Shown: piece after piece, positions 1,975 to 20,495 of the stretch
Layout: each line of letters begins with the position of its first letter
Position numbering within the stretch: position 1 is the stretch's first letter
IMG/VR virus record: IMGVR_UViG_3300027770_000026
Span: 62,001 to 126,000 of that record
DNA length: 64,000 bases
Origin: a virus
Strand: one strand, 5' to 3'
The notes under the pieces: generated by a model
Databases searched by the model: none
The model's input: the letters and a program-made list of their open reading frames with translations, nothing else
What the model was told of the DNA's origin: nothing
Made by a program: the position numbers and the translations under genes

Positions 1975-1979
1975 TTGGC

Positions 1980-2291: not shown

Positions 2292-2293
2292 TT

Positions 2294-3298: not shown

Positions 3299-3355
3299 TA
3301 AAACTCCTTTAACAGTTATAGGTCGTAGTATACGCAGTCATCAACATGGTGTCAA

Positions 3356-6451: not shown

Positions 6452-6526
6452 CTTCGTCTCCTTGTGTGTATGTGTGTACGCAGGATCGTTCCTGCAATTG
6501 TATATAGCAGATAGTTGTACTATTCA

Positions 6527-6534
6527 TATAAATA
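6527..6534 (+). promoter_or_regulatory. Late promoter TATAAATA
   Basis: Perfect match to the T4 late consensus, ending five bases before the ATG at 6540; the same spacing and a near-identical context occur at 1969. Confidence 0.75.
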
Positions 6535-6539
6535 TTGGT

Positions 6540-8681
6540 ATGAAAATACATGATATACTCACCGAAGCACAGCGTTTTGACTTCGACAAACACCGTGATA
6601 CTATTCTGCGTTTTGTGCAAAATACGCTGGCCGGCAAGCCCAATAACAGACAATTCAATCCCTTTTATGAACTGATTGTGGGTGGCGGGCAAGTGGGTGC
6701 CGCAAACAAATTGGGTATTGATCCCAAGATGGCAGCAACATGGAAACAGTACTTCCAAAGCAAGCCCTTCCTAGGTGGAGCCGGTGAACCTTGGAGTCAG
6801 GTTAACATTGGTGATCAGTACGCTAAGGCCACAGGCGATGACCGAACCCTGAACTTTTATGTTACTGTAAGCAAAGACAAGGACAATATAATGAAGTTCT
6901 TTAGGAACTATCACAGCCTTGCTAGCTACTTACAGCCCATAAGTCAACAGAACCAAACGCCTATCAAGTTTAAAACACACAGTATATTAGACAGCTTTAT
7001 TGGGCACAACGACAGTTTCAAGGTCTACTACTACGATCCTAAACTACGGAACCAAATAGTTGCTGCTGTTAAGAAATGGCTCAGTGACAGTGGTGTAAGC
7101 ACTGCTGCAAGATCACACGAACACGGCGTGGACGTAAAGAGTAATGGTGGTAGCTTTGGACAGTTACTAAGCAATCACGTATACGACGAGTTCACCAAAC
7201 TGATAAAAACAAACGGCGCTAAGGTTACTCCTGAACAGTACTTTGACTGGCTTAAGAAGAATCTCCCTGTGTTAATAGCACAGGTAAAGCCTAAGGAGCA
7301 AATGACAGAATCCTGGAGCAAGGGCTACAAGAAGAGCATTGATTGCTCAAATCCAAAAGGGTTTGGTATGAGAGCCAGCGAATTTATAACTGAAACACCA
7401 CTTGATCCTAGCACATCAAGTAAAATACTAGCTATGGCAACACGGCAAAAATACCAACTGCTGGGACAAGGCGCTGATGCTACTGTATTTGGTAGCTCTA
7501 CTCACCGTCCAAAAACGGTAGTTAAGATAACGTCGGGCGAACTATACACATCTGCAAAAAAAGCCAGCATAGGTTTCGACCACTTTTACGAGTTTTGCCA
7601 ACAGCACCCCGATAGCCCCTACCTGCCAAAGTTTGAGGAACGGGGATTCTTTGAAGTAAACAGGGAAAAGATTCCTTGGGTGCGTATGGAGCGTTTGAAC
7701 GAACATCCACAGGATTTGCATATCTATGCTGCTGTAGATACGCTAATAGAGGAATCATTTAAAAACGAATTTGCTGATTGGAAACTTGTGAAGTCTCTGC
7801 ATCCAAAATTGACCCTACAACAGCTGGGGATGCTTAAGAAATTTTACTCCATGCTCTCGGAACTAACAGACTACTTTTGGAAAAAAAGATCCAAATTGAA
7901 GTGGGATCTAGGAAAACGTAATATTATGTACCGTAGTAACGTTCCTGTTATCACAGATCCGTTCATGGCTAAAGAGCGAGAAGAATATGAAGAATCCTGG
8001 AGTAAGAGCTACAAGAAGAGCATTGATTGCTCAAATCCAAAAGGGTTTAGTCAACGTGCTCACTGTGCGGGACGCAAAGCACGACGTGCGGGCAAGAAGA
8101 CCAAAAGCGGTAGCGTAAGTGAAGAAGGAGAACTACTTTGGTCGTCAATGAATGAAGCTAGAGCCAATAGTGTGGAAGATTACAAGCCCACTGACCAACA
8201 ATTAGATGACCTAAAAAGCAAGTATCTTCCCAATTGGGAAATGTCAGATCATAAAATGTTACAGGCACGCTACATAGCCAAAGATCATCGACGTGCTGAA
8301 AAATTTATCAGGTTCATAAACCAAGTATCCGAACGTATGGATCACTTTGCCAAAGTAACTCAGGATGTATCCGAAGTCACTGTGGAAACAACTACCTTTG
8401 ATGTAAAAGGTCTGACTATTTTGGACTTCCAGTTGGCCTCGGCCATAGACAAATATGCAGAAAGAAATCAAATTGAACAGGCGAGGTCAGGCGGTAATTT
8501 TGAAATGTATGAAAACTTTGCAGATGGCGAGAAGCCTGGTCGCAAAGGACTAGCCAAACGTTCAGGTGTTGACTGTAAGCAAAGTGTGAGTAAATTGCGT
8601 AGTGTTGCTAAGAATAGCACAGGTGAAAAGCAGCGTATAGCACATTGGTGTGCCAATATGAAATCAGGGAAGAAAAAATAA
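6540..8681 (+). CDS. HopA1-like / protein-kinase-like fusion protein
   Basis: 713 residues from the ATG five bases after TATAAATA. N-terminus MKIHDILTE resembles a capsid-targeting sequence. Residues ~95-225 resemble the HopA1 family: FYVTV, IKFKTH (K145), NDSFKVYYY (D158), GGSFGQ (S205-G207). Residues 277-480 look like a protein kinase: glycine loop LGQGADATVF (309-317), K329, catalytic-loop WDLGKRNIM (D456, N461) and TDPF (D473) in place of DFG. A second targeting-like motif, MRASEFITE, begins at M277. The 19-residue segment around YKKSIDCSNPKGF occurs twice, and the C-terminus is Lys-rich. Kinase plus HopA1 is the pairing of class V lanthipeptide synthetases, where Ser/Thr is phosphorylated then dehydrated. 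The kinase fold is fairly secure; the HopA1 call is tentative. A paralogous kinase domain lies at 45100-45720. Confidence 0.75.
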   Translation: MKIHDILTEAQRFDFDKHRDTILRFVQNTLAGKPNNRQFNPFYELIVGGGQVGAANKLGIDPKMAATWKQYFQSKPFLGGAGEPWSQVNIGDQYAKATGDDRTLNFYVTVSKDKDNIMKFFRNYHSLASYLQPISQQNQTPIKFKTHSILDSFIGHNDSFKVYYYDPKLRNQIVAAVKKWLSDSGVSTAARSHEHGVDVKSNGGSFGQLLSNHVYDEFTKLIKTNGAKVTPEQYFDWLKKNLPVLIAQVKPKEQMTESWSKGYKKSIDCSNPKGFGMRASEFITETPLDPSTSSKILAMATRQKYQLLGQGADATVFGSSTHRPKTVVKITSGELYTSAKKASIGFDHFYEFCQQHPDSPYLPKFEERGFFEVNREKIPWVRMERLNEHPQDLHIYAAVDTLIEESFKNEFADWKLVKSLHPKLTLQQLGMLKKFYSMLSELTDYFWKKRSKLKWDLGKRNIMYRSNVPVITDPFMAKEREEYEESWSKSYKKSIDCSNPKGFSQRAHCAGRKARRAGKKTKSGSVSEEGELLWSSMNEARANSVEDYKPTDQQLDDLKSKYLPNWEMSDHKMLQARYIAKDHRRAEKFIRFINQVSERMDHFAKVTQDVSEVTVETTTFDVKGLTILDFQLASAIDKYAERNQIEQARSGGNFEMYENFADGEKPGRKGLAKRSGVDCKQSVSKLRSVAKNSTGEKQRIAHWCANMKSGKKK
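7308..7364 (+). repeat. 57-bp intragenic direct repeat, copy 1
   Basis: Encodes the ESWSKGYKKSIDCSNPKGF segment. Differs from 7991-8047 at only two bases, so it is a recent duplication or is kept uniform by recombination. Confidence 0.85.
7991..8047 (+). repeat. 57-bp intragenic direct repeat, copy 2
   Basis: Second copy, encoding ESWSKSYKKSIDCSNPKGF and followed by a Cys/His/Arg-rich stretch (SQRAHCAGRKARRAG). Confidence 0.85.
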
Positions 8682-8719
8682 GAGGGTTTTTCTGTTGCCA
8701 GGAAAACCCACAAACCCCG
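8682..8719 (-). terminator. tmRNA terminator hairpin; right copy of 38-bp direct repeat
   Basis: On the minus strand GGGTTTT pairs with AAAACCC and CTG with CAG around a GCAA (GNRA) tetraloop, and a T-rich run follows (CTCTTATTTTTT). It stands directly downstream of the tmRNA tag region. It is also the right copy of the repeat at 6171-6208. Confidence 0.8.
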
Positions 8720-8977
8720 GTCTATTCCGCTATTAGGCGGCTAGTGCCATGTCGTAATTGCTATCGTTTGCAGTTACTGTTTTTGCGCTGATTAAGTCAG
8801 TCGCCTCACTGGTAGCCCTTAGTTTATTACTCACCCTGTCAAACCTGGTCGGCCCCAACAACAACACACTTCGTCCTGCAGTACATTCCTAATAGGTGTG
8901 ACACGGTCTGCAAATGTGCTGTTGGTGGAGCCGGGGGGAATCGCACCCCCGTCCAAGATGCCTTTAGTTAAGAGTTT
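8720..8977 (-). ncRNA. ssrA: Circularly permuted (two-piece type) tmRNA
   Basis: Read leftward, the 3' acceptor part comes first. A T-arm (GGGGG-TGCGATT-CCCCC) is followed by CGGCTCC, discriminator A and an encoded CCA ending at 8923. A 66-base spacer (8922-8857) follows. The 5' part then starts GGGGCCG at 8856, which pairs with CGGCTCC, including the G3-U wobble that marks alanine charging. A D-arm analogue with GGTTTGACAGGG, helices at ~8780-8812, an A-rich stretch and the resume codon GCA (8771-8769) come next. The tag reads ANDSNYDMALAA, then TAA TAG, with the stops in the loop of a CCGC/GCGG hairpin. This order is that of permuted tmRNAs processed into two pieces. It would rescue stalled ribosomes with host SmpB. 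Exact mature ends are uncertain. Confidence 0.92.
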
Positions 8978-8983
8978 ACTACC

Positions 8984-8989
8984 ATTATA
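8984..8989 (-). promoter_or_regulatory. Sigma70-like -10 box for tmRNA
   Basis: TATAAT on the minus strand, about seven bases before the inferred tmRNA precursor start. No good -35 box is visible at 16-18 bases. The element falls between the tmRNA and the stop of the 8997-9746 gene. Confidence 0.5.
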
Positions 8990-8996
8990 CACTTAC

Positions 8997-9746
8997 TTAT
9001 AGTTTTTGATCATATGGTACTTCAATCCATCTACGATTATTCCACGTTGTATTGATAGTATGCACAACACCTTTCCTTATATCATGATAAAACAGTCTTG
9101 CTTGTGTTTGTGATGTGATGCTATCAACTAATGCCCAAAAACTGCTCGACACACAATGTATTTCTGTTGCGTTTCTGATCAGAGTAACCCACTTTAACAA
9201 GTTACCCTGATCTAGATCCAAAGTAACATAGATTATTTTGATATTAGGTAACCCGTTCACAACACGATATTGTTCAATGTCAATTGGAAAGCCATCTAGG
9301 TAATGACTGGATGATTTATGAATCAATACATATGGTTCTCCGGGGGTAACTAACGAACAGTACAGTTCATCCGAATCATCAATATGTTTTGGTAAACGAA
9401 AATTAGTATATCTCAAAGAGAAAGGCAAGTTATAAGAATCATAATATTGCTGAGAGAAATTAATTGGGATATGAATTCCGTTTATAACTGTGTAATTAAG
9501 CATCCTTCTCTTAATTTGAGAAAGTCCGCTATCTGATATGTATTGAGGTTCATAATTTGGGTGTACAGATACTACCTTAATATTAGGCCAATCTTGATAC
9601 AGACAACGAGTAGTTTCATAATAGCAAGGTTGAGTCGGAATATGTAATTCTCGACACCGATCGCCATAGTAATGAGCTATACCATTGTGAATAAAAGTAT
9701 CACCGAGGCTTTGATAACCTATAAAGAACAAACGATCAAATATCAC
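8997..9746 (-). CDS. Glycosyltransferase-like protein (paralogue 1)
   Basis: 249 residues, GTG start at 9746. The N-terminus DRLFFIGYQSLGDTFIHNGI resembles the first Rossmann motif of GT-B enzymes of the ADP-heptose transferase kind (a GD near a nucleotide-binding loop). The C-terminal half has a segment ATEIHCVSSSFWALVDS that recurs in its neighbour. The paralogue at 9749-10507 shares many blocks (DRLFF, SLGD, HYYGD, LRYTNFRLP). It could modify surface polysaccharide or a nucleobase; the enzyme class is an inference. Confidence 0.6.
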   Translation of the reverse strand: MIFDRLFFIGYQSLGDTFIHNGIAHYYGDRCRELHIPTQPCYYETTRCLYQDWPNIKVVSVHPNYEPQYISDSGLSQIKRRMLNYTVINGIHIPINFSQQYYDSYNLPFSLRYTNFRLPKHIDDSDELYCSLVTPGEPYVLIHKSSSHYLDGFPIDIEQYRVVNGLPNIKIIYVTLDLDQGNLLKWVTLIRNATEIHCVSSSFWALVDSITSQTQARLFYHDIRKGVVHTINTTWNNRRWIEVPYDQKL

Positions 9747-9748
9747 TT

Positions 9749-10507
9749 TTATACTTTATCGTGATAATTTACAATATTCCAGCAACGACGATTCCATTCA
9801 CTGTTAACACGAGTAACAGAGAAAGCACGAATGTCATGAAAGAACAATTTTGCATTAGTTTGATTAAACATGCTATCTACTAATGCCCAAAAACTACTAG
9901 ATACACAATGTATTTCGCTAGCGTTCTTAATCAACTTAACCCAGCGAAGTAAGTTCCTACCATCCAAACTTTCGTCTACATGTATTACTTTAAGTTGTGG
10001 TAATCCGTTTATTTGTCTAAACCAATCAATATTGATAGATATACCATCCGGATGGTGTCCTGTTTTATTGTGTAATAAAATATAAGGCTCACCGCCCGAC
10101 AATTGATCATATAACTCGTCGCTACCATCTACATAGTTTGGTAAACGAAAGTTAGTATAACGCATGGAAAAAGGTATACTATAGTAGTCGTAGTATTGCA
10201 TGTCAAATGCAACTGGTATTAGCTGCCCGCTTAGATGCACCGAATAAACACTGTTTCTTAGAATGCGAGAAAGTTTATTCTCTGCAACATATTGATCTTC
10301 TCCCTGATTATGCGGCATCAGGGGAACTACAATGATATGGGGATGATCCTGATACAAAGTACGAATAGTATCGTAGTATTTAGGAAGACAAGGTATATGC
10401 AATTCGTCTGTCATATCACCGTAGTAATGTGCAACCCCATTCATTATAAACGCATCGCCAAGACTCATTGGTCCCGTAAAAAACAATCGATCAAAAATCT
10501 TAGTCAC
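9749..10507 (-). CDS. Glycosyltransferase-like protein (paralogue 2)
   Basis: 252 residues, GTG start overlapping the upstream stop (GTGACTAA). Shares with 8997-9746 the blocks DRLFF, SLGDAFIMNGVAHYYGD, LRYTNFRLP and ASEIHCVSSSFWALVDS, so it is a tandem duplicate that has diverged considerably. Function inferred as for paralogue 1. Confidence 0.6.
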   Translation of the reverse strand: MTKIFDRLFFTGPMSLGDAFIMNGVAHYYGDMTDELHIPCLPKYYDTIRTLYQDHPHIIVVPLMPHNQGEDQYVAENKLSRILRNSVYSVHLSGQLIPVAFDMQYYDYYSIPFSMRYTNFRLPNYVDGSDELYDQLSGGEPYILLHNKTGHHPDGISINIDWFRQINGLPQLKVIHVDESLDGRNLLRWVKLIKNASEIHCVSSSFWALVDSMFNQTNAKLFFHDIRAFSVTRVNSEWNRRCWNIVNYHDKV

Positions 10508-10679
10508 AATCTTTCCTATTATCTTTCACGCCACAATGTGGACAATACCAGGTCTTAGGTTGCCACCCTGCATCCATTGTAGCAAAACTCCACCATAGAT
10601 AACAATGGTCACAACTAAAATGCCAAATTGTTTCTCTATAGGGAGTTAGCTTGATGTCATCGATCTCGATGGTACTCAT
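10500..10679 (-). CDS. Small zinc-ribbon protein
   Basis: 59 residues from ATG 10679 (MSTIEIDDIKL). Two CxxC-like pairs (CDHC and CPHC) separated by about 20 residues are a typical zinc ribbon. Could bind nucleic acid or act as an adaptor. An upstream in-frame ATG at 10709 is possible but would lengthen the overlap with the gene before it. Confidence 0.6.
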   Translation of the reverse strand: MSTIEIDDIKLTPYRETIWHFSCDHCYLWWSFATMDAGWQPKTWYCPHCGVKDNRKDCD

Positions 10680-10968
10680 ATTCGTCTGAGTCATTCCAAG
10701 CGTAGTCAAAGTCTGCCATGCAACGTTTCATATGGTGATAATATTGTGGATATCGGTATGGCGCACGTTCTTCACAGAAGCGTAGTGCCTTGCGATAGGG
10801 ATAGCGTTCGGGATAGTAACGTGGCTCACGTTCGCGTTCGTGATGTTTGCCAATATGGTAACCAATGACGCCACCGATGATTGCTGCTACGGCGTCATCT
10901 CCTGCAAATGCTGAATTTGGCACTGCTAGCCCTAAAACCATTGCGGAAACAAGTAGAATATTCTTCAT
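10657..10968 (-). CDS. Secreted basic protein with glycine-zipper segment
   Basis: 103 residues. Signal peptide at 1-22 ending NSAFA. A short helix AIIGGVIGYHIGKHH follows, then a Tyr/Arg/His-rich domain with two Cys. The layout recalls small periplasmic glycine-zipper proteins. GAGGG precedes the ATG and a TAAATA element lies about 18 bases upstream. Confidence 0.7.
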   Translation of the reverse strand: MKNILLVSAMVLGLAVPNSAFAGDDAVAAIIGGVIGYHIGKHHEREREPRYYPERYPYRKALRFCEERAPYRYPQYYHHMKRCMADFDYAWNDSDEYEYHRDR

Positions 10969-10986
10969 TTGAATGCCCTCATAAGA

Positions 10987-10992
10987 TATTTA
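10987..10992 (-). promoter_or_regulatory. Late promoter element TAAATA
   Basis: GTACTAAATATCT on the minus strand, 18 bases before the secreted basic protein's ATG. Confidence 0.5.
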
Positions 10993-11002
10993 GTACAGCG
11001 TA

Positions 11003-11287
11003 CTAGTAGTCCCGTACTTTGTCATGACTAGCACCGCAGCGACCACAGTACCACCAACTCCAACCTAATCCATTGGTGTGGAACTTGGACTTGAGATGCT
11101 CACCATGTTCCTGTACACATTTTTCCTGTATCTCTTTAAGAGCAGGATAGTATACCGTGCGGTCATACTCCTCCATCAGCTCCTGCATCTTCTTCCTGCG
11201 GGCGTCCTGTATCCCCCAGTAAGTATCTGGTGGATCGTTTTTCATTTTGATTGCTCGCGCCATGCGAATGATGTCATCATGGTCCAT
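11003..11287 (-). CDS. Hypothetical protein with possible zinc site
   Basis: 94 residues, helical N-terminal half with many charged residues, then CVQEHGEH and YCGRCGASHD, which could form a zinc site. It overlaps the upstream gene by about 11 bases. No family was recognised. Confidence 0.65.
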   Translation of the reverse strand: MDHDDIIRMARAIKMKNDPPDTYWGIQDARRKKMQELMEEYDRTVYYPALKEIQEKCVQEHGEHLKSKFHTNGLGWSWWYCGRCGASHDKVRDY

Positions 11288-11522
11288 TGAATTCCTTTGG
11301 GTCTACAGGCAGTAGTGTTTCAACAGTACCCTCATGATATGCAAATGCGTCTAAGAATCGCTTAGGTGCACCAACTACACCCGCTAGTTGGTATGCTACT
11401 GCCAGCAGGTCGCGCAGGTGTTCATTCTCGTACTGTAGGCGACGGGCTTCGCGTTCGTGACAACTGCCTGTATGAAAGCCTGCACAGTCACAGTACTGTG
11501 GCGGTACACCTTCTTCATTCAC
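11277..11522 (-). CDS. Hypothetical protein
   Basis: Start chosen at GTG 11522, overlapping the upstream stop as GTGAATGA, which gives 81 residues. An upstream ATG at 11582 would give 101 residues and a 68-base overlap. A Cys/His cluster (YCDCAGFHTGSCH) is followed by a leucine-rich helix. No function was assigned. Confidence 0.55.
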   Translation of the reverse strand: MNEEGVPPQYCDCAGFHTGSCHEREARRLQYENEHLRDLLAVAYQLAGVVGAPKRFLDAFAYHEGTVETLLPVDPKEFNGP

Positions 11523-12072
11523 GGCGGCTGCTACTTGTATTTTTTTGATTATCTGTAACAACGATGTTGTCTTCGTCATCATTCCAGTAATCCATACCTA
11601 TTTTCCACTTGTCGCAATATTGTTTAAAAAATGAATGTAGGAGTGGTTCATACAAATCCATATCATAATCTTTTTCTGGCATAACTGCCAATGGATCCAG
11701 ATGACTATCAAAAAGTACCCTACTGCCATTTAGAATAACATTTTCATCCAATTCCATCATACAATCAAATCTATCAAAAAGTGCCTGCACGACAGCATCG
11801 TTCATTTTTCGTGTTTTACAATATTCAGCTTTTTCTTTTTGAATTTGTTCTCTTTCGAGCGTTTTTTCGTATTCATATTGGCTGTATGTCAGCGTAGCAA
11901 TCCATTCCTGATATTTAATTAATATGTCTGGGGCGCCAAGACGTTTCATTGCACCAACTATCTTTCTTTGTCTAGACCTGTGTTCTCTAGTACGCACCAG
12001 TTCGCTATCTATTTCAACGGTCTCATTATCCGGTTCTTCCATAATTTCTATTTCTTTCTTATTGTACTTTTT
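11515..12072 (-). CDS. Hypothetical acidic/helical protein
   Basis: TTG 12072 follows GGGGAG at a good distance and is preferred, giving 185 residues; ATG 12042 is an alternative. The protein is rich in charged helices (EYEKTLEREQIQKEKAEYC) with an acidic C-terminal domain. No family was recognised. Confidence 0.55.
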   Translation of the reverse strand, partial: KKYNKKEIEIMEEPDNETVEIDSELVRTREHRSRQRKIVGAMKRLGAPDILIKYQEWIATLTYSQYEYEKTLEREQIQKEKAEYCKTRKMNDAVVQALFDRFDCMMELDENVILNGSRVLFDSHLDPLAVMPEKDYDMDLYEPLLHSFFKQYCDKWKIGMDYWNDDEDNIVVTDNQKNTSSSRRE

Positions 12073-12076
12073 CAAG

Positions 12077-12244
12077 TTAATCTCCCCATTCCGTACTGCG
12101 GAGGGTAGCCTGTTCTTCAAGCAGATAGGTTATCTGCTCAATTAGATCTGCGACCTTATCTTTGGCTTGGTCTGACACGGGCAAGTCGTAGATGCGATTT
12201 GCCAAATCGTCAACATCTTCTAAAAACTTATCAAGTGTTCTCAT
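12077..12244 (-). CDS. Small helical protein
   Basis: 55 residues from ATG 12244, overlapping the upstream stop as ATGA (MRTLDKFLEDVDDLANRIYD). Predicted as two amphipathic helices, possibly coiled coil. Function unknown. Confidence 0.65.
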   Translation of the reverse strand: MRTLDKFLEDVDDLANRIYDLPVSDQAKDKVADLIEQITYLLEEQATLRSTEWGD

Positions 12245-12450
12245 TCTATTACCTCCCATGCATCGTGTAATATCATCCAATCCCATATGCAATCTTCAAA
12301 ACAATAAGTTGCATCCGCATGCTCCCTACCATAGGTGTCGCACTTGCGTTCATGCCATTTGGGATAGTAGTCGCGACGAATATAATTCTCGTTTACGGTA
12401 ACTATTTGTCCGTGTGTAGGATCCGGCTCGTTATATGAAAAATATCTCAT
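12241..12450 (-). CDS. Hypothetical protein
   Basis: 69 residues (MRYFSYNEPDPTHGQ), rich in Tyr, Trp and His with three Cys. It starts in an ATGA overlap with the preceding gene. No family was recognised. Confidence 0.65.
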   Translation of the reverse strand: MRYFSYNEPDPTHGQIVTVNENYIRRDYYPKWHERKCDTYGREHADATYCFEDCIWDWMILHDAWEVIE

Positions 12451-12827
12451 TTGATCTTCCGGCCCAGAGTCTGAATCTCAGCTTCGTCGCATACGTATTG
12501 GTAGGCGCCCTTGTTGTAGGCAGGAGCCAGTCGCTTGCTCTTGGCAATGATGGCTTCGCGTACCTCTGGTGCTTCCTTGGCTAACTGCGCAGCATCCATC
12601 ATGCTGTTACGAGCAGTAGCTTGAGATACGTCGTTGGTGGTCACATGCGACTTGAGCGCAAGTGCCGTGTCAGCACCTGGTCGCAGAGGGCGGCCATTGT
12701 AGGTTGGTGAATGGTCAACTTGAAGACGACGAAGCCTGCTGACATCAAGTTTGACGGCAACAGGCCCGGCAGGTTTCTTTTTACTCTTGCGCCGAGGCTT
12801 GTAACGATTATCTACGTAGATCAACAT
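12447..12827 (-). CDS. Hypothetical basic protein
   Basis: 126 residues with a strongly basic N-terminus (YKPRRKSKKKPAGP), which suggests nucleic-acid contact. A mostly helical region follows. The gene is more GC-rich than the small genes downstream. No family was recognised. Confidence 0.65.
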   Translation of the reverse strand: MLIYVDNRYKPRRKSKKKPAGPVAVKLDVSRLRRLQVDHSPTYNGRPLRPGADTALALKSHVTTNDVSQATARNSMMDAAQLAKEAPEVREAIIAKSKRLAPAYNKGAYQYVCDEAEIQTLGRKIK

Positions 12828-12886
12828 TGCAAGTACCTCAAGTTAAAAGTGGTGTTTTAAAAGGATAACACCTAACCTGGGGGACG

Positions 12887-13225
12887 TCAAGCCGCAGTGG
12901 TAGTCTTCGCCTTGGCCTTGCTCTTGGGAGCAACAACCTCGGCAACAACTTCAGCAACAGCCTCTTCAACCTCGTCAGCACCAACCAGTGCCCGCTTGAG
13001 CGCAACGCCAGCGCCTGGGGGGATGTTCTGAACGTTATCCAGAACATACTGCGCAGCAGCAACCTTGGTCATCTCCTCGGGAAGGTCGAGGAAGGTAACC
13101 TCAGTCTGGCCTGCACGGACCAGGAGCGCGGTACGCGCCTTTGCAGTAGTATTGGCGAAACGAGCCTTGTACTGGCCGTTCGTGAGCTTGCTGTAACCAG
13201 CGATCGAGAAAGTCTTGTTCGACAT
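12887..13225 (-). CDS. Small abundant-type phage protein, GC-rich
   Basis: 112 residues from ATG 13225 (MSNKTFSIAGYSKLTNGQYK). The N-terminal domain is beta-rich, and the C-terminus is an Ala/Val/Glu then Lys-rich tail (APKSKAKAKTTTAA). Codons are clearly richer in G and C than in most of the window. A good sigma70 promoter with an operator-like palindrome lies about 70 bases upstream. High expression is likely; function unknown. Confidence 0.75.
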   Translation of the reverse strand: MSNKTFSIAGYSKLTNGQYKARFANTTAKARTALLVRAGQTEVTFLDLPEEMTKVAAAQYVLDNVQNIPPGAGVALKRALVGADEVEEAVAEVVAEVVAPKSKAKAKTTTAA

Positions 13226-13291
13226 GATAAACACCTCAGTTTCAATTAAATTAAGTAAACTATCAAACTAGCACATAAGCCGTGCCGTGCT

Positions 13292-13329
13292 ATTGTACTA
13301 CCAAGTCAAGCCGTTATCAAGCCTTGATA
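13292..13329 (-). promoter_or_regulatory. Sigma70-type promoter with palindromic operator candidate
   Basis: On the minus strand: -35 TTGATA (13320-13315), a 17-base spacer and -10 TACAAT (13297-13292). A perfect palindrome, TATCAAG-C-CTTGATA (13315-13329), overlaps the -35 box and could be a repressor site. It drives the GC-rich gene at 12887-13225. Confidence 0.65.
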
Positions 13330-13331
13330 GC

Positions 13332-13505
13332 TCAAATCCAAGCGTTGTGATATTCTACCGCAACGCACATCTCTACCAAATCCTCAACCTCGTATTGGTC
13401 GGGATCGTTAATACCAAACTCTTCCTCCGCTACGGAGTAGATGAGTCGATCATTACGCAGTTCAGTGCGCAATTCGTTCAAGCAGTTTAGCACCGTATTG
13501 TCCAT
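13332..13505 (-). CDS. 57-residue hypothetical protein
   Basis: ATG 13505 to TGA 13332. An acidic, helical protein starting MDNTVLNCLNELRTELRNDR. It follows the small membrane protein by only a few bases. No family was recognised. Confidence 0.6.
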   Translation of the reverse strand: MDNTVLNCLNELRTELRNDRLIYSVAEEEFGINDPDQYEVEDLVEMCVAVEYHNAWI

Positions 13506-13508
13506 ATG

Positions 13509-13700
13509 TCAAGCCTTTTTGCTAGGATAATAATTAGTGTTCACAAACACGAGCAGCACAAATCCTGCTAGCCACGTCTTGAACGTATAAGGAATGGTCA
13601 AGGGGAACAAGGTGTTCAGTGCCCAAACCAATGCCCACGGGATGAGGATAACCCCCACCAGCAGTGCAATGCCTGCTGTCGTTTTGAGAAAATTAACCAT
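13509..13700 (-). CDS. Two-helix membrane protein
   Basis: 63 residues with two hydrophobic helices (about 8-32 and 41-55) and a short basic tail. It overlaps the upstream 37-residue membrane peptide by eight bases. Function unknown. Confidence 0.65.
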   Translation of the reverse strand: MVNFLKTTAGIALLVGVILIPWALVWALNTLFPLTIPYTFKTWLAGFVLLVFVNTNYYPSKKA

Positions 13701-13806
13701 TGCGGGTTGTCCAGCGGTAGTAAATGCGCTGTGGGATGCCCAACTTGGCGGCCCACAGTACGTCCATGACTACCATCCCCAAAAGAAACATACCCAAGTC
13801 ACGCAT
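13693..13806 (-). CDS. 37-residue membrane peptide
   Basis: ATG 13806 to TAA 13693. The sequence starts MRDLGMFLLGMVVMDVLWAA, a single hydrophobic helix, then a basic tail. Overlap with the next gene supports it. Confidence 0.5.
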   Translation of the reverse strand: MRDLGMFLLGMVVMDVLWAAKLGIPQRIYYRWTTRNG

Positions 13807-13856
13807 TACTATCTCCCTAATCATTTCGTATACTATAATATCTGTGTTTGGGCGTG

Positions 13857-14072
13857 TCAACCACTAATTTTAGAAATTTCTTTGTGTTCTAAAATCACGC
13901 GGTCGCGCACTGCCCCGTAAACCGTAATGGGTTGGTCAAGAACCACATGATGGGAGATGGTGCCGCCGTACTTTACACGGCTCAGCTCCACAGTGCCCGA
14001 GACATCAAACTGATTCATGTAGCGTCCGTAAACCCGGAGCCCTTCCAACTGCCACTGCGTCACTGAGTACAT
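13857..14072 (-). CDS. Hypothetical beta-rich protein
   Basis: 71 residues starting MYSVTQWQLEGLRVYGRYMN. Predicted mostly beta strand. It has its own sigma70-like promoter in the divergent region with the HAD gene. No family was recognised. Confidence 0.65.
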   Translation of the reverse strand: MYSVTQWQLEGLRVYGRYMNQFDVSGTVELSRVKYGGTISHHVVLDQPITVYGAVRDRVILEHKEISKISG

Positions 14073-14103
14073 GTTCTGCTCCTTTCCCTAACCCTATGTG
14101 CAT

Positions 14104-14132
14104 ATTATAGGTTCTGGGTACCCATAACGCAA
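14104..14132 (-). promoter_or_regulatory. Sigma70-type promoter
   Basis: On the minus strand: -35 TTGCGT (14132-14127), 17-base spacer, -10 TATAAT (14109-14104), reading into the 13857-14072 gene. Confidence 0.6.
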
Positions 14133-14208
14133 GAACTAAATTTCCAATAGAATCAATGACTTACGTTTTTGAGTCCAAAATACCTACTTCTAGCCCACGT
14201 TTTCTGCT

Positions 14209-14214
14209 TAAATA
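14209..14214 (+). promoter_or_regulatory. Late promoter element TAAATA
   Basis: CTTAAATA ends five bases before the HAD-protein ATG at 14220 (leaderless class). Confidence 0.6.
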
Positions 14215-14219
14215 GTGTC

Positions 14220-14759
14220 ATGAAACTGACAGAAATTGGGGAGTCCAAGCCCCACTTGTACTTGGATATGGACGGGGTTCAGGCGGACTTTTTCACTGCA
14301 TGGGCTCGTATACACGATAAGGATCGTTACAAAGAGATTGGAGACAAGGAAGCTCGTGAAGCCAGCATTGTCGATATGGCTGCACGGGGTCCGGAGTTCG
14401 TTGAGGACTTCTTTACTAACTTGGAACCCCTGCCAGGTGGCACCAAGCTGGTTGCATGGCTCAAGGCCAACAGCATCCCCTTCACTATTCTCAGTGCTCC
14501 GCTGCGTGACCAGCGTACGGCCAGTGTAAAGGGCAAACGAGCTTGGTTGGACCAGCATAATCCTGGCACTAGCGACACTGCTAAGTTTGATGGCTTTAAG
14601 GAACGCTACGCTGTTACCGGCGGGCGTGTTAACTTGCTAATTGACGACCATAAGAAGTATATTGGTCGTTGGGAGGAAAAGGGCGGCCTTGGTATTCTCT
14701 ACCGCGATGACCATGTTGACGAAGTCATCGGCCGCCTCAAGGAAATCTACGGCGTTTAG
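14220..14759 (+). CDS. HAD-superfamily phosphatase, nucleotidase-like
   Basis: 179 residues from ATG 14220, five bases after TAAATA. Motif I is LYLDMDGVQADFF (D16, D18), motif II is FTILSAP, and the acidic motif IV is NLLIDD. The size and DMDGV motif resemble 5'(3')-deoxyribonucleotidases, which dephosphorylate nucleoside monophosphates; the substrate is inferred. The N-terminus MKLTEIGES fits the capsid-targeting-like pattern. It ends tail to tail with the next gene, the stop codons overlapping. Confidence 0.85.
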   Translation: MKLTEIGESKPHLYLDMDGVQADFFTAWARIHDKDRYKEIGDKEAREASIVDMAARGPEFVEDFFTNLEPLPGGTKLVAWLKANSIPFTILSAPLRDQRTASVKGKRAWLDQHNPGTSDTAKFDGFKERYAVTGGRVNLLIDDHKKYIGRWEEKGGLGILYRDDHVDEVIGRLKEIYGV

Positions 14760-14974
14760 ATTCCTGCCTTACTAAGTCCAGCTGCTGCTAGTGCGGCACT
14801 GGACTTGTCTACTCGTGCCTTAACAAGTTCAACACGTTCCTTTGCTTTAGTGATTGCTTCCTCATTGGGCTCTTTTGAGTTCTTGAGAGTCTTAAGCTTG
14901 CGTCTGGCTAACGTTAGGTCTCGCTGAGCACAAACATATTCCAATTCTGAACTTTGAATTCTACCGTTACGCAT
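14756..14974 (-). CDS. Small coiled-coil protein
   Basis: 72 residues, mostly one charged helix (DLTLARRKLKTLKNSKEPNE) with an Ala-rich end. Its stop overlaps the stop of the convergent HAD gene. Function unknown. Confidence 0.65.
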   Translation of the reverse strand: MRNGRIQSSELEYVCAQRDLTLARRKLKTLKNSKEPNEEAITKAKERVELVKARVDKSSAALAAAGLSKAGI

Positions 14975-14985
14975 ATATATTATCC

Positions 14986-15198
14986 TTAGATTTGATCGGG
15001 GTCTAGCACGATGTCGATACCTGCTACCTTACCAAGATACTTACCAGTCTTGACATCCAACTTCATAATAACTATATGGTTAGTTGGTAAACGTGCCCAT
15101 AGTTTATTTTCTTGGTAATCGATATCAACTATTAAAACAATAACTTCCTTTTTGGAACGATCGCTAGTTACAGCAAGTTTCATACCTTTCTCAATCAT
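14986..15198 (-). CDS. Hypothetical beta-rich protein
   Basis: 70 residues from ATG 15198 (MIEKGMKLAVTSDRSKK), in an ATGA overlap with the exonuclease stop and preceded by GTAAGGA. Probably a small beta-barrel. No family was recognised. Confidence 0.65.
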   Translation of the reverse strand: MIEKGMKLAVTSDRSKKEVIVLIVDIDYQENKLWARLPTNHIVIMKLDVKTGKYLGKVAGIDIVLDPDQI

Positions 15199-15737
15199 AG
15201 AGTCCTTACTCCCAGTTGTTTCAAACAATATTGAACCTGTTCCGCTTGCCACCTAACATCGTACAGTGCATCGTGCGCACCTTTGCCCTTAGCAGGTACG
15301 GTTGGTACAAAACTTAATAGTGTACGACTGTCGCGCCATTGCCAATAATGCCAAGGGCGTGGCATGCTGCAAGTAGTATATGCTGCTTCAAGTAATGGTG
15401 GGTCAAAGTTCATGCCCTGACACCATAGACGATTTGCATTAGCAACAAACTTGCTCAGTTGTTCTAATGCGTTGGGCAGGGTAACACGTGGTCCACTTTC
15501 AAATGCTTTAGCACGTACTTCGGGTGCTTGCTTCTCCCACCATGCAATGGTGTCCGCATCGTAAGAGAGATTCCATTTTTCCAAACAATCGTCTGGATCA
15601 ACTAGTGCTTCAAATTCTACTACAGTATCCGAACGACCCAGTGCATCAAATCTAATGGCTGCAATGCTGAGAATAGCAGAGCCAGGTTGCGTACCCAGCG
15701 TTTCAATGTCGATCATGCAGTCTGGTGGGGCAATCAT
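15195..15737 (-). CDS. DEDD-family 3'-5' exonuclease (DnaQ/ExoX/DexA-like)
   Basis: 180 residues. Exo I motif MIDIETLG (D10, E12), Exo II around NFDPPLLEAA, Exo III HDALYDVRWQA (His and Asp, the DEDDh type). Such enzymes degrade single-stranded DNA or RNA 3' to 5' with two metal ions; T4 DexA is a phage example. It may recycle host DNA or proofread. Translationally coupled to the gene downstream. Confidence 0.85.
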   Translation of the reverse strand: MIAPPDCMIDIETLGTQPGSAILSIAAIRFDALGRSDTVVEFEALVDPDDCLEKWNLSYDADTIAWWEKQAPEVRAKAFESGPRVTLPNALEQLSKFVANANRLWCQGMNFDPPLLEAAYTTCSMPRPWHYWQWRDSRTLLSFVPTVPAKGKGAHDALYDVRWQAEQVQYCLKQLGVRTL

Positions 15738-15738
15738 G

Positions 15739-16524
15739 TTAGGTCCAAAGGTACTTGCGTAGTTTAACTAGTCGCACCATCATTTCCGTATCCTCGTCCT
15801 CATAGTTTTTTTCAATCTTGTGAGACAAGTCTAGTATAGCATGTATACGCGCCTGTGTATATGGTTCTACATATGAATCCATACCAACCTTGTTTACTTC
15901 GCGCCAACGGTTGTATTCGGACCAACCAGATGCGTCAAGTGGCTCCGGACGATGAAAACGGTGGCATGTCCACCAAAAGTATAATTCCAATACTTCTTTA
16001 CCACTAGCGTCTGGAGCTAGTCCACTATTAAACTGAAAGGATGAGTTTTCAGCAATTTGCTCGCGAAAGTATTGAACACCTAATTCTGAACTGCGCCATA
16101 TGCGGAACCAACGACGCCACTTGGGTGGTGCTGTTGGATGATCGTGCTTGTCGCCCCATCCACCGGTGGTAAACAGTGCGCACTCTACTTCTACAAAGTC
16201 TACTAGTTCAGTGAACATACCATGTAGTAGACGATTTTCAAACTCATGCCATTGACCAGGTTCTAGACTGGTCTTCATGTAGTGCGTCTTGTCAATCCAA
16301 CGATTGACTGCATAACAGCGAGCACCCCAAAGTTTATCTTTGGGCCAGCATACAATGTTCTGTAATTTGTTTAGCAGTTCCTCTGCAAGCCAATGTCGTA
16401 CGGGATTGGCAGTCTTGGCTTTGTCTTGCCATTCATCCCATTCATCCAATGTAGCATATGTTGGACGTGGGGTACCACGAATCCAGTGAGCGAGCTTGCT
16501 ATCGCTCCAGTATTTGAATCGCAT
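15739..16524 (-). CDS. Conserved phage hypothetical protein, Trp-rich
   Basis: 261 residues, unusually rich in Trp, His and Arg (e.g. KWRRWFRIWRSSELG). The C-terminal part ends with a pattern HKIEKNYEDEDTEMMVRL that I associate with a widespread T4-like phage protein of unknown role. No catalytic motif was recognised. Confidence 0.7.
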   Translation of the reverse strand: MRFKYWSDSKLAHWIRGTPRPTYATLDEWDEWQDKAKTANPVRHWLAEELLNKLQNIVCWPKDKLWGARCYAVNRWIDKTHYMKTSLEPGQWHEFENRLLHGMFTELVDFVEVECALFTTGGWGDKHDHPTAPPKWRRWFRIWRSSELGVQYFREQIAENSSFQFNSGLAPDASGKEVLELYFWWTCHRFHRPEPLDASGWSEYNRWREVNKVGMDSYVEPYTQARIHAILDLSHKIEKNYEDEDTEMMVRLVKLRKYLWT

Positions 16525-16540
16525 ATTAACCTCTAGTGGG

Positions 16541-16843
16541 TCAGGCTGGTTTAACTTTTACTTCTAATGGATAACCGTTGCGCCGGGCAGCATAAGTGCA
16601 TTCCAACGCTCGCTGTTCTGCCAACTCGTAGTGATAAGTGGCAACAACAGCCTGACCCTGCTCATGGACCAGCATCATGATTTCAAAGCTGCGGGTATTA
16701 TCATATTCAAAAATCTCAGCCAACAATTGAATAACAAAGTCCATACTGGTTACATTGTCATTCATAAAAATCACATTAAACTTTTTGGGTTCTTCTGTTG
16801 TGATGCTATTTTTGATTTTGGGTTTTACTGCAACTTCTGTCAT
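16541..16843 (-). CDS. clpS: ClpS, N-degron adaptor for Clp protease
   Basis: 100 residues, the usual ClpS length. The core reads MNDNVTSMDFVIQLL, MMLVHEQGQAVVATYHYELAE and AARRNGYPLEV. Compared with E. coli ClpS, pocket residues N28, D29, M34 (specificity gate) and H60 are kept, while the second Asp of the NDD motif is Asn (N30). ClpS delivers proteins with bulky N-terminal residues to ClpA-ClpP and inhibits ClpA degradation of ssrA-tagged proteins. It sits beside Hsp20, bS21 and ClpX and in the same genome as a tmRNA, so it may redirect host proteolysis. Confidence 0.93.
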   Translation of the reverse strand: MTEVAVKPKIKNSITTEEPKKFNVIFMNDNVTSMDFVIQLLAEIFEYDNTRSFEIMMLVHEQGQAVVATYHYELAEQRALECTYAARRNGYPLEVKVKPA

Positions 16844-16858
16844 AATGCTATCCTTTTA

Positions 16859-17284
16859 TTAGCTGCGCTTGATTTCGATCTTGCGTGGCTTGAGCTCTTC
16901 TGGTACCTTCTTGACTAATTGTACAGTCAACAGGCCGTTTTTGCAAGTGGCAGATTCAACTTCCACATGCTCACCGAGACGCCAATTCAATTCAAAGTCT
17001 CGATTAGCAATGCCCTTGTACACATAGTCACGTGGCTCTTCATCCGGTACTCGTGAGCCAGTAACGTGCAGCACGTTATTGTCCACAGTAACTTCAATAT
17101 CGTCCGGAGAGAAGCCAGCAACTGCAACAGTGATGCTCCAGGTATTGTCTTCGAGTCGTTCGATATTGTATGGTGGATACTTGGCCTGAGGTAAACCGTT
17201 TCGTCCCATAAGGTCATTGAGATATTCAAACCCTACGGTTAAACGGTTCAGATGGTCGTTGAGATTTGTAGTTGTTACATTCAT
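16859..17284 (-). CDS. hsp20: Small heat-shock protein, Hsp20/IbpA family
   Basis: 141 residues. N-terminal TVGFEYLNDL and YPPYNIERL as in IbpA. The alpha-crystallin domain covers about 40-128 and ends with NGLLTVQL. An IEI motif near the C-terminus (KIEIKRS) is the oligomer-contact I-x-I. The family holds unfolding proteins in a refoldable state. It is common in T4-like cyanophages. The gene has a late promoter and a structured 80-base leader. It stands between ClpS and bS21. Confidence 0.93.
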   Translation of the reverse strand: MNVTTTNLNDHLNRLTVGFEYLNDLMGRNGLPQAKYPPYNIERLEDNTWSITVAVAGFSPDDIEVTVDNNVLHVTGSRVPDEEPRDYVYKGIANRDFELNWRLGEHVEVESATCKNGLLTVQLVKKVPEELKPRKIEIKRS

Positions 17285-17291
17285 TTTATTG

Positions 17292-17364
17292 CTCCTTTAA
17301 AAGCGAGTTGTATGGAACCCCAATTGGGCGTTCCTTGTAGTACGCACACCATGTGCCTACTACA
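17292..17364 (-). promoter_or_regulatory. Structured 5' leader of hsp20
   Basis: A hairpin with 12 of 13 pairs and a TGG loop (17336-17364) begins about at the inferred transcript start. A second stem (GGAAC-CCC / GGG-GTTCC) follows. The ribosome site AAGGAG lies in a short hairpin with CTCGCTT (17292-17307, one bulged G). Could be an RNA thermometer; inference only. Confidence 0.4.
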
Positions 17365-17368
17365 ATTT

Positions 17369-17376
17369 TATTTATA
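17369..17376 (-). promoter_or_regulatory. Late promoter TATAAATA
   Basis: Perfect consensus on the minus strand, 84 bases before the hsp20 ATG, producing the long structured leader. Confidence 0.65.
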
Positions 17377-17395
17377 CACGAACTATCGAGTCAAG

Positions 17396-17617
17396 TCAAG
17401 TTTTAATTTTTTGCTCGCGACGAGTGCGGGCGACAGCTTTGGCTTTAGCACGGCGTGCAACAATGCTGGGCTTGAGGTATTCACGCTTCTTGTCCAGATC
17501 GTCCAAACGTCCACTGTTCTCTACTTTCTTTTTGAACTTGCGCAGCATCTTCTCAAAACTATCGCTGCCGTTATCGTCTACACGTAGACCTTTGATAATT
17601 GGTTCTTTATGTCTCAT
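17396..17617 (-). CDS. rpsU: Ribosomal protein bS21
   Basis: 73 residues, highly basic. The pattern GLRVDDNGSDSFEKMLRKFK, KKREYLKPS and a C-terminal Arg/Lys/Ala-rich helix match bS21. bS21 is the last, exchangeable protein of the small subunit near the anti-Shine-Dalgarno site, and phage copies are thought to replace the host protein and bias initiation. Its ATG overlaps the clpX stop as TAATG, so the two are translationally coupled. Confidence 0.93.
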   Translation of the reverse strand: MRHKEPIIKGLRVDDNGSDSFEKMLRKFKKKVENSGRLDDLDKKREYLKPSIVARRAKAKAVARTRREQKIKT

Positions 17618-18861
17618 TATACACCTTTTTTCTTTTGCTTGTGCTTTATCAAAGGCATTTCTTCTGTACCGTTGATATACTCTTTAGTTATCGTTACTGT
17701 GCTTACTGTTTGTAAATTCTTATGGCTAAGACTGTACTGCAACGGTGTTAACTTCTTCTCTAATATACTGCGCAAACTACGTGCGCCTGTTCCCTGCTTG
17801 ATAGCTTTTTGTGCAATACTACTCAGTGCTTCCGGTGCAAACTTTAATTTTACGGGAGAGAACATAGCTTCATACTGTTTGATGATACTGTCTTTTGGTT
17901 CCGTAAGGATCTTGACCATTTGTTCTTCTGTTAGCATTTCAGTGGAAGTGATAACCGGCAAGCGTCCCATTAGTTCTGGGATCATACCATACTTTACCAA
18001 ATCTGTTGCAGCCAATAAGTCCCAATTAATTTTCTTGTTAGATGTTACATTAGCAGAAAATCCAATACCAGTGCTAGTGGACTGTTGCTGCTCTAGATGT
18101 TTCTCTAGTCCAACAAATGCTCCACTACACACAAAGAGGATATTACTAGTGTCCATCTTAACAGTATCACCTAGTCCAAATGGCTTATCTGGATCTGTGG
18201 GTACACTGATCTCGCAGCCTTCGATCATTTTTAGTAGTGCTTGCTGCACACCTTCGCCCGACACATCTCGTTCTACCGTAGCACCACTGTGTGCCCGTGC
18301 GATCTTGTCAATCTCGTCAATAAAGATTATACCTTGTTCAGCTAGTTGTACATTACCATTAGCTGCTTGCAGCAATCTACTTAGGAGTACATCTGCATCG
18401 TCACCTGCATAACCTGCTTGAGTCAGTGCAGTAGCGTCTCCGATTATCATTGGTACACTTAGCAAGTTAGCAATGGCTTTGACCATTAGAGTTTTACCCG
18501 AACCAGTTGGTCCAAGTAACAAGATGTTGCTCTTATCTACTCGTACACTTTCTTTGTCTGCTTTACGGAACAATCGTTTGTAATGATTGTGTACAGCAAC
18601 ACTAAGGACTACCTTAGCTTTATCCTGACCAATTACAATTGTATCAAGATATTCTTTAATCTCAATCGGTGTTATTATTTTAGGTTTAGTTTTAGGTTGG
18701 GGCGTTTTGACTTCGGGTACTTTTTTAACTAATAGGTCTACTATAGACTGTACACATATGTTGCAGATACCCGCTGTTTCACCAACAATCAGACGCTCAA
18801 CTTCTGCCTGAGTTCGCTGACAAAAACTACAGTGCTTTACCGTATTTTTTTTGGATTGCAT
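17617..18861 (-). CDS. clpX: ClpX, AAA+ unfoldase of ClpXP
   Basis: 414 residues, close to E. coli ClpX. Zinc-binding domain with C11, C14, C33, C36; Walker A GPTGSGKT; pore loop GYAGDD (GYVG in E. coli); Walker [29 protein letters not shown]; the ClpP-docking IGF loop (TGIGFSANV); arginine motif GARSLRSI. The basic RKH loop that helps select ssrA tags is replaced: the equivalent stretch reads [13 protein letters not shown]. It should therefore dock on host ClpP but may select substrates differently. Its start overlaps the upstream gene by 35 bases. Confidence 0.95.
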
Positions 18862-19222
18862 TATTCACCAGTAAGTTAATGTTTTCTTCTACAATGTGTC
18901 GTAATGACAACTTGTACAATGTATTTAAGCTCGCGCTGTCATATTCCATGTAATAGCAATTTGGCAGCGATAGTATGTAGCCTGTTAACCAGTGAAACAA
19001 GTTTGGGTTGTTAAATATTATTAGATTGCTTGTTTCTAGCACTGCTAGAACATACTCAATGTCGTTAGTTTGTGGGGATAGATCGTATAACGCAATGTTA
19101 CCGTCTATTTCAACTTCATTGAGTAATGTTGTAACTTTTTCCTGAACTTCTGAATCTAGGCCGATAACCGTTACTTTGAAACCGGTGTATGTAATATCAG
19201 GTGATGTTAACAGACTGATCAT
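18827..19222 (-). CDS. Hypothetical protein upstream of ClpX
   Basis: 131 residues, possibly a Rossmann-like alpha/beta fold: beta strands [15 protein letters not shown] and NLIIFNNP alternate with helices. It overlaps clpX by 35 bases and the membrane protein upstream by 26. Being coupled to clpX, it could be an adaptor, but nothing in the sequence shows this. Confidence 0.7.
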
Positions 19223-20495
19223 TGTCTAGGTATTTAAGAATGGCGGCACACTGCACCCAACTTAGTTCGTCAACGGTCATGTTATTGTTAGTAAGTTGAT
19301 CCATTAGATTACGCACAGTTTCTAAACTAATTAGTTCAGGCTTCTCCCTCAAAGAGTCAAGAGAAATAATTTTACCATCAAACCTTACGTAGTCGGGACC
19401 AATCTGTTGATAACGATTTGAGATTAGTTCTCTTGTATTATCCGGTGTCTCTTCTACCGGTGCTTCAACTATAACCCAATTACGTTTTGCTGAATCCCAT
19501 GTCATACTTCCGGGTGTGCTGCTAACAGTGTCATAATTGAATACTTCAGCATGTGGCGGTAATTCGTCGATAAGTGGTGTCGAAGCTACCTCATCTGGTA
19601 CAATCTCAAGATCTGCAGGAGTTGAATCAATTTCTAATTCTATCGGAACTACCACTTCCTCTGCTTTAACTTCCGGCACAGGTTCAACTACTGCAACAGG
19701 TGCAGGTGGTTCTACTGGAAGGATGGGATCGACTGCAGTTTTTGCTGCCTGTTCCTTACGGTGCAGTGCCATGCCAAAGTTAGCAGCAATAAGCATGATA
19801 ACTGCTAGTGGGTCAAACACCACAATAAGGATAATGATTACTGAACGCACTGCTTGGTCAAAGTGACTCTTAGCTTGTTCGCCGTAGATTAGTTCTGCAA
19901 TATACTTTAGCGGGCCAATCTCCGCTTCTACTTTGCGATTGCTAATATCCAGCGGAATCTTTTCTTCGTATAACTTGTCAATGTCTGTTTGTAATGCTTT
20001 CTTTTCGTTTGCAACACCACGAAGCTCGCGTTTCATTCGATCACGCTGTGCCAATGCTTGGCTTACACGATCCTTTTCAATTAGCGCGTCAACTGCATGG
20101 TTGAGACGGTCTTCGGTACCAGTTAGTCTTTCCAGCTGCTTTTCCTTAACAGCAATGTCTTGCTCCATACGTTCCAACTGCAAGCTAGTGTCCGATGTTG
20201 CAGCACGTTGTTCCAAGTGTGCTTTTGATAGATAACCAAAGATTCCCATGCTGGTAATGAACATGAGCACAACTACTGCTGCACTCATATAGGCTTTCAG
20301 CGCACGTGGTGCAGCGATCCAATTGTTATACACCCAACTGGCGCAAACTAACTTGGCTACTTCCAATGTACCGCCCATGATCATGATGCTGATTGGGGCA
20401 GCAGAGAAGATAGCAATAAGTCCTGCAACAGAGAACCAAGCTGCAACGCCACTAAGGGCAAGTCCAGTTAAAAGCATTAGAATTGTAGCAAACAT
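19197..20495 (-). CDS. Membrane protein with coiled coil and Pro/Glu-rich tail
   Basis: 432 residues. Several hydrophobic helices at the N-terminus (about 1-92), a long charged coiled coil (about 95-205), another hydrophobic helix (about 218-240), a Pro/Val/Glu-rich linker and a small C-terminal domain. Likely an inner-membrane protein acting on the cell envelope. I recall similar membrane proteins in T4-like cyanophages, with no known function. Confidence 0.75.
   Translation of the reverse strand: MFATILMLLTGLALSGVAAWFSVAGLIAIFSAAPISIMIMGGTLEVAKLVCASWVYNNWIAAPRALKAYMSAAVVVLMFITSMGIFGYLSKAHLEQRAATSDTSLQLERMEQDIAVKEKQLERLTGTEDRLNHAVDALIEKDRVSQALAQRDRMKRELRGVANEKKALQTDIDKLYEEKIPLDISNRKVEAEIGPLKYIAELIYGEQAKSHFDQAVRSVIIILIVVFDPLAVIMLIAANFGMALHRKEQAAKTAVDPILPVEPPAPVAVVEPVPEVKAEEVVVPIELEIDSTPADLEIVPDEVASTPLIDELPPHAEVFNYDTVSSTPGSMTWDSAKRNWVIVEAPVEETPDNTRELISNRYQQIGPDYVRFDGKIISLDSLREKPELISLETVRNLMDQLTNNNMTVDELSWVQCAAILKYLDNDQSVNIT

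Follow-up and report, generated by a model that had tools for sequence, protein, structure and literature searches.

A clpX-bS21-hsp20-clpS gene block, a permuted tmRNA and no detected ClpP in a large phage genome

We examined a window of 64,000 nucleotides, positions 62001-126000 of the 265,892-bp IMG/VR virus record IMGVR_UViG_3300027770_000026 (the whole record is called G000 below), which carries the genes of ClpX, ribosomal protein bS21, the small heat-shock chaperone Hsp20 and the N-degron adaptor ClpS, together with a gene for transfer-messenger RNA (tmRNA). Coordinates are window positions unless marked G000 (Table 1). An earlier note on the window had described these five genes as a portable kit for ribosome rescue and proteolysis. 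All five are real, the tmRNA being called by ARAGORN and two Rfam models and each of the four proteins lying above its Pfam gathering score. The four protein genes are consecutive on the minus strand (18861-16541), as the note had said, and form a tight block within a longer minus-strand gene run; the Hsp20 carries the alpha-crystallin domain PF00011. The start codon of bS21 shares one base with the stop codon of clpX, and two genes upstream of clpX overlap their neighbours too, so the overlaps make translational coupling in the block likely. Between the tmRNA gene and clpX lie 8.6 kb that include a plus-strand gene (14169-14759), which puts the tmRNA outside the Clp operon.

The note had seen no ClpP, SmpB or SspB in the window, and this holds for the whole of G000: none of the three was found in its 265,892 bp by searches that did match other records and control genomes. 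Beyond the window, G000 encodes a full-length ClpA, a second ClpS-domain protein and a DnaJ-domain protein whose gene adjoins clpA. With two unfoldases that have docking loops, two adaptors and zero peptidases, G000 stands apart. A PF00574 (ClpP-family) match was present in every other IMG/VR record, and in each of the three cultured phages, that had a clear ClpA match, although prohead proteases may account for some of the weaker matches, and ClpP was present in all four relatives of more than 300 kb that were chosen by capsid similarity. A ClpP-family peptidase accompanies ClpA in nearly all relatives that have ClpA, but not in G000. Both ends of G000 (1-1274 and 265252-265892, minus strand) fall inside a collagen-like GPQG/YTGS repeat gene of the same kind, suggesting a circularly permuted genome that was broken at the repeat and is near-complete; completeness is therefore likely.

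The window protein is still a ClpX, with 482.5 bits for NF003745 (cut-off 359) and 447.6 bits for TIGR00382 (cut-off 370.75), a C4 zinc-binding domain, Walker A (GPTGSGKT) and Walker B (IDEIDK) motifs and the sensor-2 GAR. Its docking loop, TGIGFSA, contains the intact ClpP-docking tripeptide IGF. The property in which it departs from the family is the predicted reading of ssrA tags. Escherichia coli ClpX holds the ssrA tag via Y153, V154, T199, V202, R228 and H230 (PMC7652416), and we took the roles of the tag-reading residues from that study and from PMC9035409. The corresponding six residues of the window protein are Y, A, E, V, K and F; Y153 and V202 are kept, as is R200, and the changes are V154A, T199E, R228K and H230F. 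Among 80 bacterial ClpX used for comparison, V154, T199 and R228 are invariant and H230 is present in 79. Because four of the six contact residues are replaced, we predict little or no reading of ssrA tags by the window ClpX. In the tree, it forms a fully supported clade on a long branch with the ClpX of the two nearest relatives (L001 and L002), both of which likewise lack H230 and T199.

The divergence of ClpX also bears on the view that these genes serve general stress relief, namely that the phage adds dosage of host-like proteostasis factors, with specificity not re-aimed, and the cell survives for large-phage replication. The joint presence of Hsp20, a DnaJ-domain protein, ClpA and tmRNA is consistent with such a role, which was proposed for Atu_ph07, a phage with seven Clp-family proteins (PMC6102473). 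Relatives such as Paride replicate on dormant hosts, in work that did not demonstrate a Clp link (PMC10761892). However, the pore loops of the window ClpX diverge from those of all 80 bacterial proteins, which exceeds the expectation for simple dosage, and phage ClpX do not nest among host ClpX in the tree. We regard stress relief as an improbable account.

The tmRNA gene is complete by both Rfam models, scoring 142.1 bits for RF04321 (tmRNA_permuted, at 8733-8983; threshold 47 bits) and 124.5 bits for RF01850 (beta_tmRNA; threshold 84 bits). ARAGORN made a "tmRNA*" call at 8642-9015 on the minus strand with the tag ANDSNYDMALAA. The order is permuted, the CCA-bearing tRNA-like piece preceding the tag-bearing piece. 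The segment CGGCTCCACCA of the tRNA-like piece pairs with GGGGCCG, and a G3-U70 pair, the alanine identity element, is formed between the two pieces. The tag, (A)ANDSNYDMALAA, keeps the adaptor-binding part AANDxNY and the LAA end. Two-piece processing, aminoacylation and trans-translation with SmpB are predicted. When the tmRNA was compared with 399 genomes of the Hydrogenophilus order to find a host, nothing matched at E<=1e-12.

A reading close to that of the note takes tmRNA and ClpX as two ends of one tag-degradation path, in which the phage tmRNA would tag proteins and the phage ClpX would degrade them with host ClpP. Both components are indeed present, the tag ends in LAA and the IGF loop is intact. 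Moreover, a permuted tmRNA was found in 12 of 17 deduplicated ClpX-bearing IMG/VR records of at least 100 kb, compared with 0 of 12 contigs drawn with an arbitrary 15-mer, a weak control in that these contigs are mostly smaller; a scan for the ribonucleotide reductase large subunit, meant as an unbiased control set, yielded only seven loci. Against this path stand the location of the tmRNA outside the block and the replacement of most ssrA-reading residues. If tmRNA and ClpX were paired, retention of the RKH loop should be commoner where a tmRNA is present, yet relatives with tmRNA had 16 loops kept and 6 lost and those without had 18 and 6 (p=1), a test limited by contig fragments and relatedness; the pairing is thus disfavoured. 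Whole-record searches detected a permuted tmRNA in 21 of the 48 ClpX-bearing IMG/VR records besides G000, at varying distances from clpX. The nearest relative (L001/G001) has its tmRNA ~11 kb downstream of clpX on the same strand, and ARAGORN placed none within 10 kb of clpX in 40 loci of relatives. Pattern scans found permuted tmRNA in well over 100 viral contigs, and none of about 20 large tmRNA-bearing contigs examined had a ClpX zinc finger; one of these contigs (L384) has the tag ANDSAYALAA, identical to that of the nearest relative's tmRNA. That aquatic phages often carry a permuted tmRNA had been reported before (PMC9004378). We consider a single path of this kind very unlikely. Loss of RKH as a general property of phage ClpX was also considered and rejected, most phage ClpX keeping an RKH-like loop. 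Long predicted tags were observed in L169 (G047) and L172 (G035) (ANKKALGFADLTVGMSELRLAA and similar), as against the usual ANDN...ALAA, and may be ARAGORN misreads.

The ClpA encoded in G000 aligns with E. coli ClpA from the N domain through to the end and is 38% identical over 702 residues to the ClpA of Pseudomonas phage PA5oct. Its docking tripeptide is LGF, where E. coli ClpA has IGL. In the window ClpS, the pocket residues N34, D35, M40, M62 and H66 are kept, and so is E79; among 48 phage ClpS, the positions N34, D35, H66, E79 and K84 are conserved in 45-48. We take E79 and K84 to be ClpA-contact positions. Since the docking tripeptides are intact in both unfoldases (IGF in ClpX, LGF in ClpA) and G000 has no peptidase of its own, use of host ClpP is the simplest reading.

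Alternatively, ClpX and ClpA may work without ClpP, as unfoldases in virion assembly or in remodelling of replication complexes. The zinc-binding domain of E. coli ClpX serves in the handling of lambda O and the Mu repressor, and this domain is present in the window ClpX. The block is located beside the ribonucleotide reductase genes, G000 lacks a detected ClpP, and translocase or assembly roles for ClpA and ClpX of jumbo phages have been suggested by Iyer et al. (PMC7824862). Drift of the docking tripeptides would be expected without ClpP, whereas both unfoldases keep them, and the ClpP-family peptidase retained by nearly all ClpA-bearing relatives also argues against this role. We hold it to be unlikely.

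Our preferred reading, to which we assign a probability of about 0.5, is that the phage ClpX and ClpA-ClpS aim host ClpP at substrates other than ssrA-tagged proteins, while the tags go to host SspB-ClpXP. Phage ClpX and ClpA would dock on the host ClpP barrel via their IGF and LGF loops; ClpS together with ClpA would direct host ClpP to N-degron proteins, and ClpX would direct it to other proteins, perhaps those that its zinc-binding domain recognises. The tmRNA of the phage, which host alanyl-tRNA synthetase would charge (the G3-U70 pair being kept) and host SmpB would assist, would rescue stalled ribosomes, and its tag would be handled by host SspB-ClpXP, provided that the host has SspB, because the adaptor-binding part and the LAA end are kept. 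Phage bS21 may enter 30S subunits in place of, or alongside, the host protein, and Hsp20 may hold unfolded proteins. The common theme would be upkeep and redirection of protein fate during a long infection, not one tag-and-destroy pathway. The note's proposal of a takeover by specificity factors that use a host core is supported as regards ClpX, ClpA, the two ClpS, the docking tripeptides and the missing peptidase, and is not supported where tmRNA and ClpX are joined in one path. A fuller version, in which the phage has given up its own ClpP and re-aims the host enzyme from ssrA tags to N-degrons and other signals by means of a ClpX blind to ssrA, a ClpA of its own and two ClpS, leaving its own tags to host SspB-ClpXP, is offered tentatively and may well be wrong.

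Several points weigh against the preferred reading. Loss of ssrA reading was deduced at homologous positions, and the effects of T199E and H230F are predictions. Most in-block phage ClpX keep RKH, so ssrA-blindness is not a property of the block. The ClpA scored 758.8 bits for TIGR02639, below the equivalog cut-off of 993, and the window ClpS falls under the NCBIfam equivalog cut-offs and has R at position K84. The second ClpS departs at ClpA-contact positions in an alignment read by eye, M40 and K84 appearing changed. A divergent peptidase, or a ClpP in the repeat gap, may also exist.

If the preferred reading is true, the phage would exemplify, in nature, a virus that exchanges the specificity factors of a bacterial protease while relying on the catalytic core of that enzyme, and sharp predictions follow for individual named residues. 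The reading would help explain why the block persists in large phages whose ClpX are only ~40-50% identical, and would give a handle on the substrates of phage Clp proteins. The question is open to experiment, since the block is present in PA5oct and Paride, two phages that can be grown in culture.

Conservation of the block was assessed in 80 IMG/VR loci found by ClpX and two cultured phages, which collapsed to 62 clusters at 90% ClpX identity. Six ClpX clusters labelled viral fell inside bacterial ClpX in the tree and were dropped from the phage counts; 51 of the 62 clusters had at least 4 kb downstream, five of these 51 were among the bacterial ClpX, and 46 phage clusters remained. In 32 of the 46, the 4 kb downstream of clpX contain bS21, hsp20 and clpS, all encoded on the clpX strand and in fixed order, and in 37 of the 46 hsp20 and clpS are both downstream within 8 kb. 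These clusters are relatives of one ClpX (identities to the window ClpX mostly 42-50%) and are not independent, and presence or absence in metagenomic contigs is affected by fragmentation. The four capsid-chosen records of more than 300 kb, a sample not chosen by ClpX, had hsp20-clpS in 4/4, ClpA in 4/4, clpX in 2/4, bS21 in 2/4 and tmRNA in 2/4. As these relatives share the items unevenly, the set is mosaic, built around a stable core, and "portable kit" was an overstatement; co-occurrence in relatives is borne out for the four-gene block but not for the tmRNA, which is outside the block and widespread without ClpX. The closest ClpX in INPHARED, that of Acinetobacter phage MD-2021a (CAKLQH020000005, L081), was set aside, the locus looking bacterial (tig-clpP-clpX, leuA and a TonB receptor).

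The capsid, portal and prohead proteins of G000 are 65%, 48% and 55% identical to those of PA5oct, and these identities place the phage, by sequence, near Arenbergviridae, in a jumbo lineage related to PA5oct. PA5oct and Paride (Wroclawvirus, Arenbergviridae; MK797984 and OR805295) have the order nrdA-nrdB-...-clpX-bS21-(2 genes)-hsp20-clpS, like the window but with two genes inserted. They also encode ClpA and DnaJ, as does G000, and their ClpX lacks the canonical RKH motif, as does the window ClpX. They differ in encoding ClpP and FtsH, and a search for a permuted tmRNA in them found none. Chen et al. 2022 (PMC9723584) counted the genes lying within ten genes of phage bS21 and recorded Hsp20 there 127 times and two groups of Clp proteins 50 and 47 times; the available part gives neighbour counts and does not describe the fixed clpX-bS21-hsp20-clpS order, the changes in the ClpX pore or the missing ClpP. 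The available parts of the reports on Atu_ph07 (PMC6102473) and AP-J-162 (PMC11242549) place ClpX, ClpA, ClpS and a Clp peptidase, or ClpX, Hsp20, bS21 and tmRNA, in one genome, but describe no compact single block, and Atu_ph07 is there reported without tmRNA. Two-piece tmRNA like that of the window is found in the aquatic Methylophilales phage Melnitz and Pelagibacter phage Mosig (PMC9004378), and the inspected region of Mosig contained no Clp genes. Stenotrophomonas phages Mendera and relatives have a tmRNA that aligns with 58% of the query at ~70% identity; Mendera, Moby, BUCT608 and relatives are cultured 160-kb phages, in several of whose records the window-like tmRNA is unannotated. Hijacking of host ClpAP by ClpS has been proposed by Iyer et al. 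(PMC7824862), and tmRNA, SmpB and bS21 have been described in huge phages by Al-Shayeb et al. (PMC7162821). A kit of this kind, bS21 with Hsp20 and Clp neighbours, is thus already published. Apparently new, relative to the portions of the literature at hand, are the fixed four-gene order, the loss of ssrA contacts in a tmRNA-bearing phage, and ClpX, ClpA and two ClpS without ClpP.

Table 1. Positions of the block, the tmRNA, related genes elsewhere in G000, and neighbouring genes
Feature	Position	Strand	Evidence or remark
ClpX, 414 amino acids (aa)	17617-18861	minus	Zinc-binding domain, Walker A/B, IGF loop; altered pore and RKH loops
Ribosomal protein bS21, 73 aa	17396-17617	minus	PF01165 E 2.2e-9, 37.3 bits (cut-off 27); TIGR00030 36.3 (28.95)
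Hsp20 small heat-shock chaperone, 141 aa	16859-17284	minus	PF00011 E 1.7e-18, 67 bits (20.8); phrog_432 E 9.7e-38
ClpS N-degron adaptor, 100 aa	16541-16843	minus	PF02617 E 5.3e-24; residue survey
Permuted (two-piece) tmRNA gene, precursor	8659-9038	minus	Rfam and ARAGORN
tRNA-like 3' piece: T arm and acceptor strand ending CCA	8923-8990	minus	Read from sequence
mRNA-like piece: acceptor 5' strand GGGGCCG, tag frame, downstream pseudoknot region	8683-8856 (3' end approximate)	minus	
Tag reading frame ANDSNYDMALAA and two stops	8730-8771	minus	ARAGORN coordinates, read from sequence
ClpA, full-length	G000 1550-3769 (L180)	minus	Outside window; Clp_N domain, two AAA modules
Second ClpS-domain protein, 128 aa	G000 53675-54061 (L182 13675-14061)	minus	PF02617 E 1.5e-12; adjoins tRNA cluster
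131-aa protein	18827-19222	minus	Overlaps clpX start; no relatives have it except the nearest two, L001 and L002
432-aa predicted membrane/coiled-coil protein	19197-20495	minus	Upstream neighbour of clpX in most phage loci
261-aa protein, function unassigned	15739-16524	minus	Shared with L001, same place
Rv2179c-like 3'-5' exonuclease	15195-15737	minus	PF16473 E 1.8e-37
NT5C-type 5'-nucleotidase	14169-14759	plus	Between tmRNA and Clp block
Ribonucleotide reductase small subunit	21633-22646	minus	Context; nrdA-nrdB-block order as in PA5oct
Ribonucleotide reductase large subunit	22892-25306	minus	Context

Among the neighbouring genes, the 432-aa protein is DUF4407-like in 4 of 28 relatives. It was considered as a dedicated ClpX partner and rejected, other gene contexts without the block being found in XacN1, RAS14 and Mosig; this DUF4407-like family also occurs elsewhere in other T4-like phages. 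G000 further carries 21 tRNAs and a probable Hsp10 that is 49% identical over 69 residues to that of PA5oct and has no Pfam match. A long open reading frame on the plus strand (window 6348-8681) has a C-terminal part that matches pterin-4a-carbinolamine dehydratase (PF01329, E 3.2e-16), and the Rfam freshwater-2 RNA motif RF02980 (64.7 bits, window 34755-34834, minus strand) is a candidate cis-regulatory RNA.

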